This document shows positions 15,965 to 20,119 of a stretch of 64,000 bases of DNA, one piece after another. The notes under the pieces are model-generated. The model ran no database searches, was not told the origin of the DNA, and was given only the letters and a program-made list of their open reading frames with translations. The translations under genes and the position numbers were made by a program. The DNA is from Streptomyces roseirectus (GTDB lineage Bacteria; Actinomycetota; Actinomycetes; Streptomycetales; Streptomycetaceae): NCBI RefSeq assembly GCF_014489635.1, contig NZ_CP060828.1, positions 7,253,501 to 7,317,500 of the forward strand, written 5' to 3'. Numbering within the stretch: the first letter of the stretch is position 1; each line of letters starts with the position of its first letter.

Positions 15965-16855
15965 TCAGCGGAACGTGTCGCAGCGGTCCATGTCACCGCT
16001 CCGGTACCCGGTGGCGAACCACTGCTGCCGCTGGGCAGCCGAGCCGTGCGTCCAGGACTCGGGCGTGACCCGGCCCTGGAACCGCTCCTGGATGCGGTCG
16101 TCCCCGACGGCGGCGGCCGCGTCCAGCCCGTCCTGGACGTCCGCGTCCGTGAGCCGGGCGATCAGCGGGCGCCCGGTGGCCGGGTCCGGCGTCGTGGTGG
16201 CGTGGTGGGCCCACACCCCGGCGTAGCAGTCGGCCTGCAGCTCGACCCGTACGGCGTTGCTGTCCGCGCCCGTGCGCCCGTCCTGCGCGCGCGTGAGGGT
16301 GCCCAGCAGATCCTGGACGTGGTGCCCGTACTCGTGCGCGACGACGTACGCCTGCGCGAAGGAACCCCCGCTCGCCCCGAACTTCGTCCGCAGCTCGTCG
16401 AAGAACCCGAGGTCGAGATAGACCTTGCGGTCCCCGGGACAGTAGAACGGCCCGACGGCGGAGGAGGCGGCCCCGCACGCGGTGCTGACCCGCCCACTGA
16501 ACAGGACGGTCGGCGACGCCGTGTACGCGCGCCCCCGCGCACGGAATTCCGTACGCCAGTAGTCCTGCACGCTGTTGACGACGGCGACGATCCGGCAGTC
16601 GTCCCGCGTGTTCGCGTCCCGCCCGCTGCGGCAGGTCTCCTGCACCTGCGCGAGCGGGGACGCGACGGAGCTGGGTCCGTCACCTCCGGAGGAGAGCCCG
16701 AGCTGGTCGGGGCCGACCCCGAGGAACAGCGCGAGCAGGAGGGCGATCACCCCGGCGATCCCGCCGCCCACGGTGGCCCGCCCGCCGGGGATCCGGCTTC
16801 CGCGCACGTCCTGCACCTCGGAGGTGTCCAGCGGCGCGTCGTCGTCGAACTGCAT
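15965..16855 (-). CDS. neutral zinc metallopeptidase (YpfJ family)
   Basis: 296 aa. The cytoplasmic N-terminus (MQFDDDAPLDTSEVQDVRG, typical of the family) is followed by a Gly/Ala/Leu transmembrane helix (about residues 25-48), then a peptidase domain with HEYGHH (HExxH) and a downstream ELQADCYAGVWAHH segment holding the third ligand. Cysteine pairs suggest an extracytoplasmic domain. I chose ATG 16855 because it begins the family-typical sequence; the longer frame to 17005 has no support. It is convergent with the upstream unknown gene, ten bases apart. Confidence 0.9.
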   Translation of the reverse strand: MQFDDDAPLDTSEVQDVRGSRIPGGRATVGGGIAGVIALLLALFLGVGPDQLGLSSGGDGPSSVASPLAQVQETCRSGRDANTRDDCRIVAVVNSVQDYWRTEFRARGRAYTASPTVLFSGRVSTACGAASSAVGPFYCPGDRKVYLDLGFFDELRTKFGASGGSFAQAYVVAHEYGHHVQDLLGTLTRAQDGRTGADSNAVRVELQADCYAGVWAHHATTTPDPATGRPLIARLTDADVQDGLDAAAAVGDDRIQERFQGRVTPESWTHGSAAQRQQWFATGYRSGDMDRCDTFR

Positions 16856-16950
16856 GCCCCCAGCCTGCGCCCCGCGCCCCGCCCCCGCCCGCCCGGTACA
16901 CCCGGACGGCGCACGCCCCGCCGCCGCCAAAACCGCTTGCGGGCCCCCGT

Positions 16951-16956
16951 TAGACT
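16951..16956 (+). promoter_or_regulatory. -10 element (TAGACT) for a leaderless transcript
   Basis: A near-consensus -10 hexamer ends six bases before the ATG at 16963, the spacing expected if transcription starts at that ATG. I see no strong -35 match. Confidence 0.55.
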
Positions 16957-16962
16957 GAACCC

Positions 16963-16986
16963 ATGGCCATTCTCCTCGCGCATTAG
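16963..16986 (+). CDS. seven-codon leaderless frame (MAILLAH) ahead of the ABC-F gene
   Basis: ATG GCC ATT CTC CTC GCG CAT TAG. It begins where transcription from the TAGACT element should begin and ends 57 bases before the ABC-F start. A small hairpin, GACGA-N5-TCGTC, follows its stop. ABC-F genes elsewhere are controlled by leader-peptide ribosome stalling, so this is a candidate attenuator peptide. It is far too short to prove by coding statistics. Confidence 0.45.
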   Translation: MAILLAH

Positions 16987-17043
16987 ACGACGGGATCGTC
17001 CGCACACCCTCGTCCAGCCCCCATTCAGCCCTGGAGTCTGTCC

Positions 17044-18642
17044 GTGATCTCCGCCTCCGGTATCGAACTGCGCGCAGGCGCCCGCATCCTCATCGAGAAC
17101 GCCACCTTCCGCGTCGCCAAGGGCGACCGCATCGGCCTCGTCGGCCGCAACGGCGCGGGCAAGACGACCCTGACGAAGGTCCTGGCCGGCGAGGGCCAGC
17201 CCGCCGCCGGCCAGGTCGCCCGCTCCGGCGAGGTCGGCTACCTCCCCCAGGACCCCCGCACCGGCGACCTCGACGTCCTCGCCCGCGACCGCATCCTCTC
17301 CGCGCGCGGCCTGGACACCCTGATCCGCAAGATGCGCGACAACGAGCAGCGCATCGCCAACGGCACCGGCGCCACCCGCGACAAGGCCCTGCGCCAGTAC
17401 GAGCGCCAGGAGACCGAGTTCCTGACCAAGGGCGGGTACGCGGCCGAGGCGGAGGCCGCGACGATCGCCGCCGCCCTGAACCTCCCCGACCGCGTCCTCG
17501 GCCAGCCCCTGCACACCCTCTCCGGCGGCCAGCGCCGCCGCGTCGAGCTGGCCCGGATCCTGTTCTCGGACGCCGACACGCTCCTGCTGGACGAGCCCAC
17601 GAACCACCTCGACGCCGACTCCATCGTCTGGCTGCGCGACTACCTGAAGACGTACCGGGGCGGCTTCATCGTCATCTCCCACGACGTGGACCTCGTCGAG
17701 ACGGTCGTCAACAAGGTGTTCTACCTGGACGCCAACCGCGCCCAGATCGACGTCTACAACATGGGCTGGAAGCTCTACCAGCAGCAGCGCGAGGCCGACG
17801 AGAAGCGCCGCAAGCGCGAGCGGCAGAACGCCGAGAAGAAGGCCGCCGCCCTGCACTCGCAGGCCGACAAGATGCGCGCCAAGGCCACCAAGACGGTCGC
17901 CGCGCAGAACATGGCCCGCCGCGCCGACAAGCTGCTCGCGGGCCTGGAGGCCGTCCGCGTCTCCGACAAGGTCGCCAAGCTCCGCTTCCCCGAGCCCGCG
18001 CCCTGCGGCAAGACCCCGCTGATGGCGGAGGGTCTGTCGAAGTCGTACGGCTCCCTGGAGATCTTCACGGACGTCGACCTCGCCATCGACAAGGGTTCCC
18101 GCGTCGTCATCCTGGGCCTCAACGGCGCCGGCAAGACGACCCTGCTGCGCCTGCTCGGCGGCGTCGAGAAGCCCGACACCGGCCAGGTCGTCCCCGGGCA
18201 CGGCCTCAAGCTCGGCTACTACGCGCAGGAGCACGAGACGCTGGACCCGGAGCGCTCGGTCCTGGAGAACATGCGCTCCTCCGCGCCGGACCTGGACCTC
18301 GTCGAGGTCCGCAAGGTGCTCGGCTCGTTCCTGTTCTCCGGGGACGACGTCGACAAGCCGGCCGGCGTGCTGTCCGGCGGTGAGAAGACCCGCCTCGCGC
18401 TCGCGACGCTGGTCGTCTCCTCGGCGAACGTCCTGCTGCTCGACGAGCCCACCAACAACCTCGACCCGGCCTCGCGCGAGGAGATTCTGGGCGCGCTGCG
18501 CACCTACAAGGGCGCCGTCGTCCTCGTCACCCACGACGAGGGCGCCGTGGAGGCGCTGCAGCCCGAGCGGATCATCCTGCTGCCGGACGGCGTGGAGGAC
18601 CTGTGGGGCGCGGACTACGCGGATCTCGTCGCCCTGGCTTGA
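17044..18642 (+). CDS. ABC-F family ATPase (ribosome-associated)
   Basis: 532 aa, no transmembrane segments. Two ATP-binding cassettes: GRNGAGKTT with LSGGQRRRVELAR and LLLDEPTNHLD in the first; GLNGAGKTTLLR with LSGGEKTRLALA and LLLDEPTNNLD in the second. A basic, Lys/Arg/Gln-rich P-site-tRNA-interaction linker with a long helix (QQQREADEKRRKRERQ) lies between them. ABC-F proteins act on the ribosome, as translation factors or in antibiotic resistance; this sequence resembles the Uup/EttA-like housekeeping type more than a dedicated resistance factor, but I cannot decide. GTG start at 17044 with CTGGAG seven bases upstream. The leader contains the MAILLAH frame. Confidence 0.93.
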   Translation: MISASGIELRAGARILIENATFRVAKGDRIGLVGRNGAGKTTLTKVLAGEGQPAAGQVARSGEVGYLPQDPRTGDLDVLARDRILSARGLDTLIRKMRDNEQRIANGTGATRDKALRQYERQETEFLTKGGYAAEAEAATIAAALNLPDRVLGQPLHTLSGGQRRRVELARILFSDADTLLLDEPTNHLDADSIVWLRDYLKTYRGGFIVISHDVDLVETVVNKVFYLDANRAQIDVYNMGWKLYQQQREADEKRRKRERQNAEKKAAALHSQADKMRAKATKTVAAQNMARRADKLLAGLEAVRVSDKVAKLRFPEPAPCGKTPLMAEGLSKSYGSLEIFTDVDLAIDKGSRVVILGLNGAGKTTLLRLLGGVEKPDTGQVVPGHGLKLGYYAQEHETLDPERSVLENMRSSAPDLDLVEVRKVLGSFLFSGDDVDKPAGVLSGGEKTRLALATLVVSSANVLLLDEPTNNLDPASREEILGALRTYKGAVVLVTHDEGAVEALQPERIILLPDGVEDLWGADYADLVALA

Positions 18643-18651
18643 TCGAATGGA

Positions 18652-18956
18652 TGATCCACTGAGTATGGATCATTCGGCCTACCGGTGATCCATCATCTGT
18701 GTGAGATCTCCTCGTATCGAGGTGTGTCCGTTCCGCTTTTCCCGGCCGACCCCTTTGGCGACGCACGTTGCCGAGGGGTCGGCTTTCTTGTCTCTCTGAC
18801 CTGCGTATTCACGCAATGTGGCGTTCGACCGGGCGGACACGGCCGTGCGGAAGTCAAGATTCCGATTGTGGAGACGGACTCCTGTCGTCAAAACCGTCGC
18901 CCACGGACCTTGCCGAATGGGTGGCCAGGAAGCCCGGGAGGGGTGATCATGAGGGG
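18652..18956 (+). promoter_or_regulatory. cluster of GATC motifs upstream of gbn
   Basis: Four GATC tetramers lie in the gbn upstream region: ATGATCC near 18652, GGATCAT near 18669, GTGATCC near 18685, and the palindrome TGATCA near 18945. Three of them carry the extended ATGATC/GATCAT form. The first two form an inverted repeat (ATGATCC-N9-GGATCAT). Gbn is known as a GATC-binding protein, so this is a candidate self-binding region. Confidence 0.45.
18744..18790 (+). terminator. strong terminator or attenuator between the ABC-F gene and gbn
   Basis: GCCGACCCCT ... AGGGGTCGGC stem with an inner GGCGAC/GTTGCC stem, followed by CTTTCTTGTCT. Confidence 0.8.
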
Positions 18957-18987
18957 ACCAGAGCGCACTTCCCATGAGGAGGCACGG

Positions 18988-19209
18988 GTGGCCGAGACTC
19001 TGAAGAAGGGCAGCCGGGTGACCGGCGCCGCGCGCGACAAGCTCGCGGCAGACCTGAAGAAAAAGTACGACTCCGGTGCGAGCATCCGGGCGCTGGCCGA
19101 AGAGACCGGCCGCTCGTATGGCTTCGTCCACCGGATGCTCAGCGAGTCGGGCGTCACGCTCCGTGGGCGTGGCGGCGCGACCCGGGGCAAGAAGGCCGCC
19201 TCGTCCTGA
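18988..19209 (+). CDS. gbn: Gbn-like small nucleoid-associated DNA-binding protein
   Basis: 73 aa, very basic. The central helix-turn-helix reads SGASIRALAEETGRSYGFVHRML (about residues 29-51, quoted in two overlapping parts: SGASIRALAEETG and GRSYGFVHRML). A Lys-rich N-terminus and a basic RGRGGATRGKK tail flank it. This matches the size and sequence I remember for S. coelicolor Gbn (SCO1839), a GATC-binding nucleoid protein affecting development. GTG 18988 is chosen because GAGGAGG lies five bases upstream; an in-frame ATG at 18950 is possible but lacks such a site. Single-gene unit between two strong terminators. Confidence 0.88.
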   Translation: MAETLKKGSRVTGAARDKLAADLKKKYDSGASIRALAEETGRSYGFVHRMLSESGVTLRGRGGATRGKKAASS

Positions 19210-19237
19210 GGTCGGGTGGGCCGTCGTTCTCGATGGT

Positions 19238-19274
19238 GACCACCCGGTCGGCGTACTGACCGACCGGGTGGTTA
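19238..19274 (+). terminator. terminator of gbn
   Basis: Twelve-base perfect inverted repeat CCACCCGGTCGG / CCGACCGGGTGG with an eight-base loop, 30 bases past the gbn stop. Confidence 0.85.
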
Positions 19275-19327
19275 CTGTGCAGTCACTTACGTTTCACTGA
19301 GGTGACCGCACCCATCGGAGGCGCCCC

Positions 19328-20119
19328 ATGGCTTCGCTCGCACCGGCACTGGACAAGGACGGCGTACGGCTCACCGTCGACGACACGCTCGCCACGGTGA
19401 CGCTGACCAACCCGGCCAAGCGCAACGCGCAGAGCCCCGCGATGTGGCGGGCGCTCGCCGAGGCCGGGCGTGCCCTGCCGGGCACCGTCCGCGTCGTGGT
19501 GCTGCGCGGTGAGGGCAAGTCCTTCTCCGCCGGCCTCGACCGGCAGATGTTCACGCCCGAAGGCATCGAGGGCGAACGCTCCTTCATCGATCTCGCACGC
19601 GGTGACGACGCCGAACTCGACGCCGCCATCGCCGAGTTCCAGGAGGGCTTCACCTGGTGGCGGCGCAGCGACGTCGTGTCCGTCGCCGCTGTCCAGGGAC
19701 ACGCCATCGGTGCGGGCTTCCAGCTCGCCCTCGCCTGTGACCTGCGCGTCGTCGCCGACGACGTGCAGTTCGCCATGCGCGAGACCAGCCTGGGCCTGGT
19801 CCCCGACCTCACGGGCACCCACCCCCTGGTCTCCCTGGTCGGCTACGGCCGCGCCGCCGAGATCTGCCTGACGGGCCGTTACGTCCACGCCGAGGAAGCC
19901 CTGCGCATCGGCCTGGCCAACACGGTCGTCCCGGCGGCCGGCCTGGACGCCGCCGTCAAGGACCTGACGGCGGCCCTCCTGGCGGCCCCGCGCGACGCCG
20001 TCGTGGAGACCAAGGCGCTGCTCCAGGGCGCCGCCGGACGCTCCTACGACGAACAGCGCGCCGCCGAACGCGCCTCCCAGGCACGCCGGCTGAGGGACCT
20101 GGCGGGGCTGGGGGAGTAG
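19328..20119 (+). CDS. enoyl-CoA hydratase/isomerase family protein
   Basis: 263 aa crotonase-fold enzyme acting on acyl-CoA thioesters. The oxyanion-hole motifs are RGEGKSFSAGLD and HAIGAGFQLALACDLR. The usual second catalytic Glu region reads ETSLGLVPDLTGTHPL, with an Asp where many hydratases have a second Glu/Gly, so the exact reaction is uncertain. ATG 19328 has CGGAGG eight bases upstream. Single gene, convergent with the next. Confidence 0.9.
   Translation: MASLAPALDKDGVRLTVDDTLATVTLTNPAKRNAQSPAMWRALAEAGRALPGTVRVVVLRGEGKSFSAGLDRQMFTPEGIEGERSFIDLARGDDAELDAAIAEFQEGFTWWRRSDVVSVAAVQGHAIGAGFQLALACDLRVVADDVQFAMRETSLGLVPDLTGTHPLVSLVGYGRAAEICLTGRYVHAEEALRIGLANTVVPAAGLDAAVKDLTAALLAAPRDAVVETKALLQGAAGRSYDEQRAAERASQARRLRDLAGLGE

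Follow-up and report, generated by a model that had tools for sequence, protein, structure and literature searches.

Background

In translational attenuation of resistance genes of the erm and cat type, a short leader frame precedes the gene, whose Shine-Dalgarno (SD) sequence is sequestered; a ribosome stalled by the drug is expected to expose it. The ABC-F gene leader of Streptomyces roseirectus analysed here is like those systems, and like that of cplR in Clostridioides difficile, in its short frame and in a resistance-gene SD that a stalled ribosome would be expected to free. The cplR gene is under both translational and transcription attenuation and an anti-SD element has been shown beside its frame (PMC10201436), whereas the frame described here has a predicted leaderless start and would supply the anti-SD strand from its own codons. 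In S. coelicolor, tiaA and are5sc are likewise ARE-ABC-F genes of Streptomyces with very short frames, and ribosomes stall at the start codon of these frames with LSAP drugs; they differ from the present leader in having 5' UTRs of 194 and 232 nt, ribosome-binding sites (RBSs) for the frames and predicted terminator/anti-terminator folds (PMC12421871). Leaderless leader frames are also known in Streptomyces from leuL, trpL, ilvL and others of S. lividans, but these amino-acid leaders are longer, are rich in the regulated amino acid and are linked to transcription attenuation of amino-acid genes, and no anti-RBS role is described for them in the cited sections (PMC8079986). Similarly, mycobacterial leaderless small frames, including cysteine-rich ones, lie upstream of genes for which control in cis has been proposed; there the proposals are cysteine sensing or translation coupling, and the main text of that report does not mention Rv1473 (PMC4633059). 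Among the matches listed in a search of open-licence papers, none described a leaderless frame ahead of an ABC-F gene. One published finder of bacterial upstream frames includes a search for an SD in candidate frames (PMC10219788), so leaderless upstream frames may have been passed over.

Results

The leader and its conservation in Streptomyces

The original prediction was that a leaderless frame of seven codons ahead of an ABC-F gene serves as a ribosome sensor. The positions given for the TAGACT hexamer, the ATG, the stop, the 57-base interval and the ABC-F start were all borne out by the sequence, and the small hairpin placed after the stop was seen in the predicted fold (16986-17014). The frame reads ATG-GCC-ATT-CTC-CTC-GCG-CAT-TAG, with the ATG at 16963 and the TAG at 16984-16986; six nucleotides separate TAGACT from the ATG, and 57 bases (16987-17043) separate the stop from the ABC-F start. 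The features are the following.

16929-16940, plus strand: upstream promoter element AAAA-N4-TTGC, conserved in Streptomyces (comparison of same-genus loci)
16951-16956, plus strand: -10 element TAGACT (sequence)
16963-16986, plus strand: predicted leaderless upstream frame, MAILLAH and stop, which is also the 5' strand of helix P1 (sequence and comparison)
16963-16975, plus strand: 5' strand of helix P1, formed by AUGG, CA and CUCC of the frame (predicted pairs; covariation in relatives)
16986-17014, plus strand: helix P2, a hairpin whose first base is the last one of the stop codon (predicted fold)
17033-17045, plus strand: 3' strand of helix P1, formed by the SD GGAG (17033-17036), the spacer and the first bases of the start codon (predicted fold; covariation)
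17044-18642, plus strand: ABC-F gene, 532 amino acids, GTG start (NCBIfam ribo_prot_ABC_F)

From the -10 element and its spacing, transcription is predicted to start at the ATG of the frame; in mapped S. lividans promoters the spacer between the -10 and the start is 5-7 nt in 88.7% (PMC8079986). We scanned both strands of the window (the whole stretch of 64 kb that was analysed) for TANNNT followed after 6 or 7 nt by ATG or GTG and by a stop within 10 codons, and a single site was returned, the MAILLAH frame. A search of 16800-17200 against Rfam gave one match at E<=1, and its 13.6 bits were well short of the family's gathering score of 49; no match exceeded a gathering score.

The exact peptide MAILLAH was found in 53 of 150 genomes of the genus, and at each of the 30 MAILLAH loci taken (L001-L030) tblastn found the ABC-F gene; the nine loci that gave no hit all lay outside this set. 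When the scan was anchored on the gene, a leaderless frame was predicted at all 76 named Streptomyces-type loci (L061-L136, which include one Streptantibioticus locus; 0.3 expected) and at all 22 class-search loci from the same genus (L031-L052; 0.0 expected), the expectations being taken from dinucleotide shuffles. The frame had seven codons in 92 of these 98 same-genus loci, which represent 97 distinct upstream regions, and 8, 9 or 10 codons in the other six. The peptides included MAILLVH, MAFLLVH, MANLLAD, MAILPVH, MAVPLVH, MPHLLVH and MDFSLLVA: Ala2 was retained in most frames and LL-(A/V)-H was common, residue 3 was I, F, N, T, C, D, S, V, P, L, A or H, and the LL pair was replaced by LP, LR, PL or FL in some. 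From the frame stop to the ABC-F start there were 55 to 126 nt, spread over the three phases (40, 39 and 19 loci). In this comparison of orthologous upstream regions, by which the prediction was to be judged, the -10, the stop and the frame were kept across Streptomyces, and the residues of MAILLAH varied. Conservation of the peptide as the sole constraint was rejected, since codon 3 is nearly free and families use different peptides.

Of 81 genus genomes searched with a covariance model made from leaders of the same genus, 79 had a match at E<=1: a single one below 1e-10 in 68, and a weaker best match in 11. Second matches had E values of 0.009 or worse; one of them, weak and at E 0.009, lies at G074:C1:1698105-1698191.

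The promoter

The -10 hexamer of the 98 same-genus loci was TAGACT in 64, TAGAAT in 26, TAAACT in 6, and TACAGT and TAGAGT in one each. It lay within the 5-8 nt before the start codon by which we define a leaderless transcript, the distance being 6 nt in 51 loci and 7 nt in 47. Further upstream, TTGC ended 10 nt ahead of the -10 in 88 of the 98 and the A-run ended 18 nt ahead of it in 78. When 31 genus genomes were searched for the pattern AAAA-N4-TTGC-N10-TANNNT, 24 matches were obtained, spread over 23 genomes, with none in the other 8; by coordinates, 23 of the 24 adjoin a match of the leader model, the exception being G007:C1:437333. The geometry of 16929-16956 appears fixed as AAAA-N4-TTGC-N10-TAGAMT and, apart from that one match, was seen only at the ABC-F gene; the middle of the element is sometimes GTGCTTGCAC, an inverted repeat. 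No -35/-10 pair of the sigma-70 type was found for the leader promoter. Control by WblC was considered and rejected: the WblC/WhiB7 motif, GAAAWY-N3-TKGMNN-N16-19-TANNNT (PMC7157823), fitted none of the 98 same-genus promoters by exact pattern.

Probable reading of the frame by ribosomes

To ask whether the frame behaves as a coding unit, 245 regions were examined, of which 152 distinct ones (91 of the same genus and 61 of others) carried TA(G/C)(A/C)NT followed after 6 or 7 nt by ATG or GTG; they were selected without regard to stop codons. The frame opened at the predicted +1 closed within 11 codons in 151 of the 152 (the exception was L054), against 25 and 6 for the other two frames; before duplicates were removed, the figures were 158 of 159 against 29 and 6. 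In family f19 the stop itself was kept while its type changed (TGA in 12, TAA in one, TAG in one). In f19 and f18 taken alone the test is uninformative, as one of the other frames closes equally often (14 of 14 and 6 of 6, respectively). As judged from sequence comparison, the closure by stops and the change of stop type favour translation of the frame. We consider it a real, genus-wide leaderless frame that is probably translated and whose RNA pairs with the RBS of the ABC-F gene in Streptomyces.

Predicted base pairing between the frame and the ABC-F RBS

When Streptomyces leaders were folded, many of them formed a helix, P1, in which AUGG and CUCC from the frame bind CCGU and GGAG at the ABC-F start and SD; P1 enclosed the hairpin that begins at the stop codon. 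Other folds were obtained in some of the 23 leaders inspected, for example L052, L125, L129 and L131. In S. roseirectus the predicted outer pairs of P1 are 16963-17045, 16964-17044, 16965-17043, 16966-17042, 16968-17040 and 16969-17039, and the inner ones are 16972-17036, 16973-17035, 16974-17034 and 16975-17033. Over 50 distinct Streptomyces frame/RBS pairs, the mean duplex energy was -10.05 kcal/mol, compared with -9.35 (sd 0.15) when frames and RBSs were re-paired, and none of 5000 re-pairings was as good as the native set.

The covariation was examined at the third base of codon 2 in the 33 of those 50 pairs with a 14-base stretch from SD to start (L051, with a frame one codon longer, was excluded). 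That base and its partner were C-G in 18, A-U in 8 and another combination in 7; in a longer alignment the counts were C-G 16, A-U 10, U-A 1, U-G 1 and other 5. Fisher's exact test on C/A by G/T at this pair gave P 8e-5, a value that is not corrected for relatedness. The change at codon 2 is silent, which points to the RNA and not to the peptide as its target. In the shorter alignment 93.6% of cells were paired against 89.6% in shuffles, and cells with two-sided change numbered 11 against 5.0, with none of 500 shuffles as high. For the longer alignment, leaders with a gap of more than 70 nt or more than 90% alike were left out beforehand and the length variants L073, L115 and L122 were dropped from the remaining 36; two pairs showed two-sided changes, which affected 15 cells where shuffles gave 7.1, and none of 500 shuffles reached that number. 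A shift of L129 and L048 in the 3' strand of this alignment lowers the share of paired cells. Two further measures did not rise above the shuffles in either alignment: how many pairs had a two-sided change (2, with 1.7 and 2.7 in shuffles) and how many further pair types occurred (5 against 4.6 and 13 against 12.8). In individual leaders, AAAU pairs with AUUU in the MANLLAD leaders and AUUU with AAAU in L130 (MAFLLVH), AUGGCUG pairs with CAGCCAU in Kitasatospora, and in L169, of family f19, CUCCGUGGC pairs with GCCACGGAG.

Beyond the genus, 35 clusters over families were compared with shuffles; 12 had P<0.05, with a combined P of about 1e-11, and in 28 of the 35 the native partner was better than the median swapped one. 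Those that did no better than shuffles include L125, L144, L165, L170, L173, L178, L185 and L244, and some of them may be false frames. Native pairing beat re-pairing in family f17 (5 of 5000 as good); in f19, with five distinct pairs, no native preference was found (2254 of 5000 as good). When the frame was ranked against other stretches of its own upstream region, the median quantile was 0.41, with 5 of 35 clusters in the top 5%; in most clusters its complementarity was thus not exceptional. Complementarity alone is common in GC-rich upstream DNA, and the argument for pairing is therefore carried by the covariation. On this comparison, sequestration of the RBS by the leader RNA is supported within Streptomyces only.

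In relatives, helix P2 usually has the form GACGGCG/CGCCGUC; other complementary arms were seen by eye in L051 and L052. In the longer alignment, where 83.1% and 89.2% of P2 cells were paired, no P2 pair changed on both sides, and an RNAalifold consensus from 36 leaders contained P1 and not P2. On account of this lack of covariation in P2 we weighed translational attenuation slightly lower, and both arrest by the peptide and a static hairpin slightly higher.

To simulate a ribosome on the frame, the first 15 nt of the leader were blocked. Mean SD accessibility in the 98 same-genus loci then went from 0.29 to 0.34 and was raised in 37; as these changes were small, the cost of opening the landing site was added as a measure. 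The mean cost for the RBS fell from 11.74 to 9.14 kcal/mol, and a drop of at least 2 kcal/mol was observed in 59 of 98 loci when the frame was blocked versus 3 of 98 when the spacer was; in the controls, the mean cost was 9.51 with the frame shuffled and 11.65 with the spacer blocked. The corresponding drop was seen in 2 of 4 Kitasatospora loci, in 6 of 27 of f17 (mean 8.66 to 8.12), in 2 of 11 of f18 (11.22 to 10.71) and in 1 of 14 of f19 (7.39 to 7.53). In f19, SD accessibility was raised by the downstream control block in 10 of 14 and by the frame block in 1 of 14. As for the S. roseirectus leader itself, its fold was no more stable than those of shuffles (z +0.98; 176 of 200 shuffles folded at least as well) and its opening cost was almost unmoved by occupancy (10.2 to 10.1). 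Modelling thus gives this leader's own predicted fold a marginal standing, and in two other families the energetics of occupancy lend it no support. A CUCC inside the ABC-F gene, noted by eye, is another possible partner of the SD.

Frames in other lineages

At E<=1e-130 an ABC-F orthologue was matched in 237 of the 246 class genomes, and 80 further loci were picked for spread among the matches listed. Of the loci from other genera, 26 of 88 had a strict predicted leaderless frame (0.7 expected), with different peptides, and in 23 of the 88 the start of the ABC-F gene itself looked leaderless. Kitasatospora had the frame in 3 of 4 loci by the strict scan and in the fourth by a wider one. By this wider scan, which has no shuffle control of its own, it was found in 27 of 30 loci of f17, many with M-x-(T/A)-P-D, and in 14 of 20 of f19, with M-(M/N)-x-V-A-D. 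Family f18 had it in 10 of 20 (0.0 expected), for example as MTSAAS, and f4 in 0 of 20, with 8 of the 20 ABC-F genes leaderless-like. In the additional set (L261-L310), 12 of 50 upstream regions were identical to earlier ones, and the f17 and f19 loci are partly repeated.

Some f17 frames (L265, L267, L274, L276, L281 and others) are of a second predicted leaderless type, GTG-started V-(R/C)-x-x-(P/S)-D; their genes have an AGAAAG-like or similar SD and in most of them pairing with the RBS is weak. In L058, from another genus, the TGA stop of a predicted leaderless, GTG-started frame was seen by eye to overlap the TTG start of the ABC-F gene, which suggests direct coupling there, and in L137 and L138 the frame finishes at the SD.

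Mechanism and alternatives

We favour, at somewhat better than even chances, translational attenuation of the ABC-F gene, in which the leaderless frame would be both the ribosome sensor and the anti-RBS strand. At the level of sequence, the conserved promoter, start, stop and frame, and the covariation of P1 in Streptomyces, are in keeping with it. Transcription would begin at the A of the short frame's ATG, and the first ribosome would load straight onto the 5' end and read the seven codons. If it left promptly, AUGG, CA and CUCC would fold back on GGAG, UG and CCGU of the ABC-F SD and start, with P1 probably kept in register by P2, the hairpin beginning at the stop codon; translation of the ABC-F gene would then be low. 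Were ribosomes held on the frame, as PTC-binding antibiotics would hold them, the anti-RBS strand would be covered, the RBS would open and the ribosome-protection protein would be made. Sensing is probably general, responding to any hold-up in the first codons and not dependent on the peptide, and we infer that drug sensing is the likely purpose of the leader. The leaderless and translated part of the original prediction is supported, as the -10, the frame with its stop and a start at the predicted +1 are all conserved; a specific stalling peptide is not favoured, given the nearly free residue 3, the substitutions of LL and the unrelated peptides elsewhere. The pairing of the frame with the RBS in Streptomyces was no part of that prediction and would connect the sensor to the gene.

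Arrest by a specific nascent chain, MA-x-LL-(A/V)-H, possibly with a phenicol or an oxazolidinone acting at the penultimate Ala, would agree with the rule by which these drugs stall ribosomes at a penultimate Ala, Ser or Thr, and with the retention of Ala2 and the frequent LL-(A/V)-H; moreover, OcrA-type proteins counter both classes of drugs (PMC9159947, PMC13041422). We nevertheless find such arrest quite improbable, for residue 3 is nearly free, LL varies, MPHLLVH contains no Ala, Ser or Thr, other families have M-x-(T/A)-P-D, M-(M/N)-x-V-A-D, MTSAAS and others, and a third codon base that changes silently is among the covarying letters. Transcription attenuation, with the hairpin after the stop as a terminator governed by the position of the ribosome as for lmrC, vmlR and others, is the usual route for ABC-F resistance genes (PMC12421871, PMC10201436), and a hairpin does follow the frame; it may also take the form of a Rho-dependent ending. 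However, a simple consensus scan found no terminator-like site in 16850-17150, no U-run follows the hairpin and the covarying pairs involve the RBS itself, so we judge this route unlikely.

The strong conservation at the nucleotide level, together with peptides that differ between families, would also be expected of a static RNA hairpin that partly hides the RBS for a low constant level, the frame being a chance spelling of conserved letters. Against this, a stop falls within 11 codons of the predicted +1 in 151 of 152 regions and far more rarely in the other frames, and it remains in f19 while its type changes, which leaves the static hairpin with a small chance. Still less probable, and very unlikely, is a role in coupling or ribosome loading, in which ribosomes would pass from the frame to the ABC-F start and expression would be raised with no sensing of drugs; mycobacteria offer described examples of small leaderless frames that are coupled (PMC4633059) and the arrangements in L058, L137 and L138 would suit it, but the distance from stop to start varies over 55 to 126 nt and all three phases in the 98 same-genus loci.

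Should translational attenuation by the leaderless frame be confirmed, the leader would be a two-in-one device, with the sensor and the lock on the RBS in the same seven codons and no need for an SD of its own. The drug response of leaderless initiation differs from that of ordinary initiation, and leaderless initiation would itself be the sensing step. More tentatively, and with somewhat less than even confidence, we propose that Actinobacteria have repeatedly evolved this minimal sensor, a leaderless frame of 4-10 codons that would be at once the loading site of the first ribosome and the anti-SD of the ABC-F gene, with the timing of the first ribosome relative to RNA polymerase deciding the outcome. 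The peptide would be irrelevant in such a sensor, and consequently any drug that holds the ribosome on the first codons would turn the gene on.

The ABC-F gene and its neighbours

The ABC-F protein passed the NCBIfam model ribo_prot_ABC_F (392 bits, cut-off 380) and was far below the cut-offs for EttA and Uup. Among solved structures compared by sequence, PoxtA was the best (274 bits), with YbiT narrowly behind (268 bits); as these two scores are close, a resistance role is likely rather than proven. On the 3' side of the gene (18685-20119), the translations show a small helix-turn-helix-like frame ending at 19209 and an enoyl-CoA hydratase-like frame at 19328-20119, genes of the kinds that also neighbour Rv1473 in Mycobacterium tuberculosis. 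From its family and this neighbourhood, the ABC-F gene is a probable orthologue of ocrA (Rv1473, MAB_2736c), and the leader suggests how an OcrA-type intrinsic resistance gene could be switched in antibiotic producers. OcrA is the phenicol-oxazolidinone ABC-F protein of mycobacteria and is reported to protect them from linezolid and chloramphenicol (PMC9159947, PMC13041422). To judge from a cited title, Rv1473 is reported to be regulated by WhiB7; it differs from the present gene in that no leader frame is described for it in the cited parts of those papers (PMC9159947, PMC13041422) and in that the Streptomyces promoters misfit the WblC motif. The name SCO6512 was considered for the S. coelicolor gene; a name look-up did not confirm it, and it was dropped. 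The divergent neighbour on the other side (15965-16855, minus strand) encodes a neutral zinc metallopeptidase of the KPN_02809/YpfJ family.
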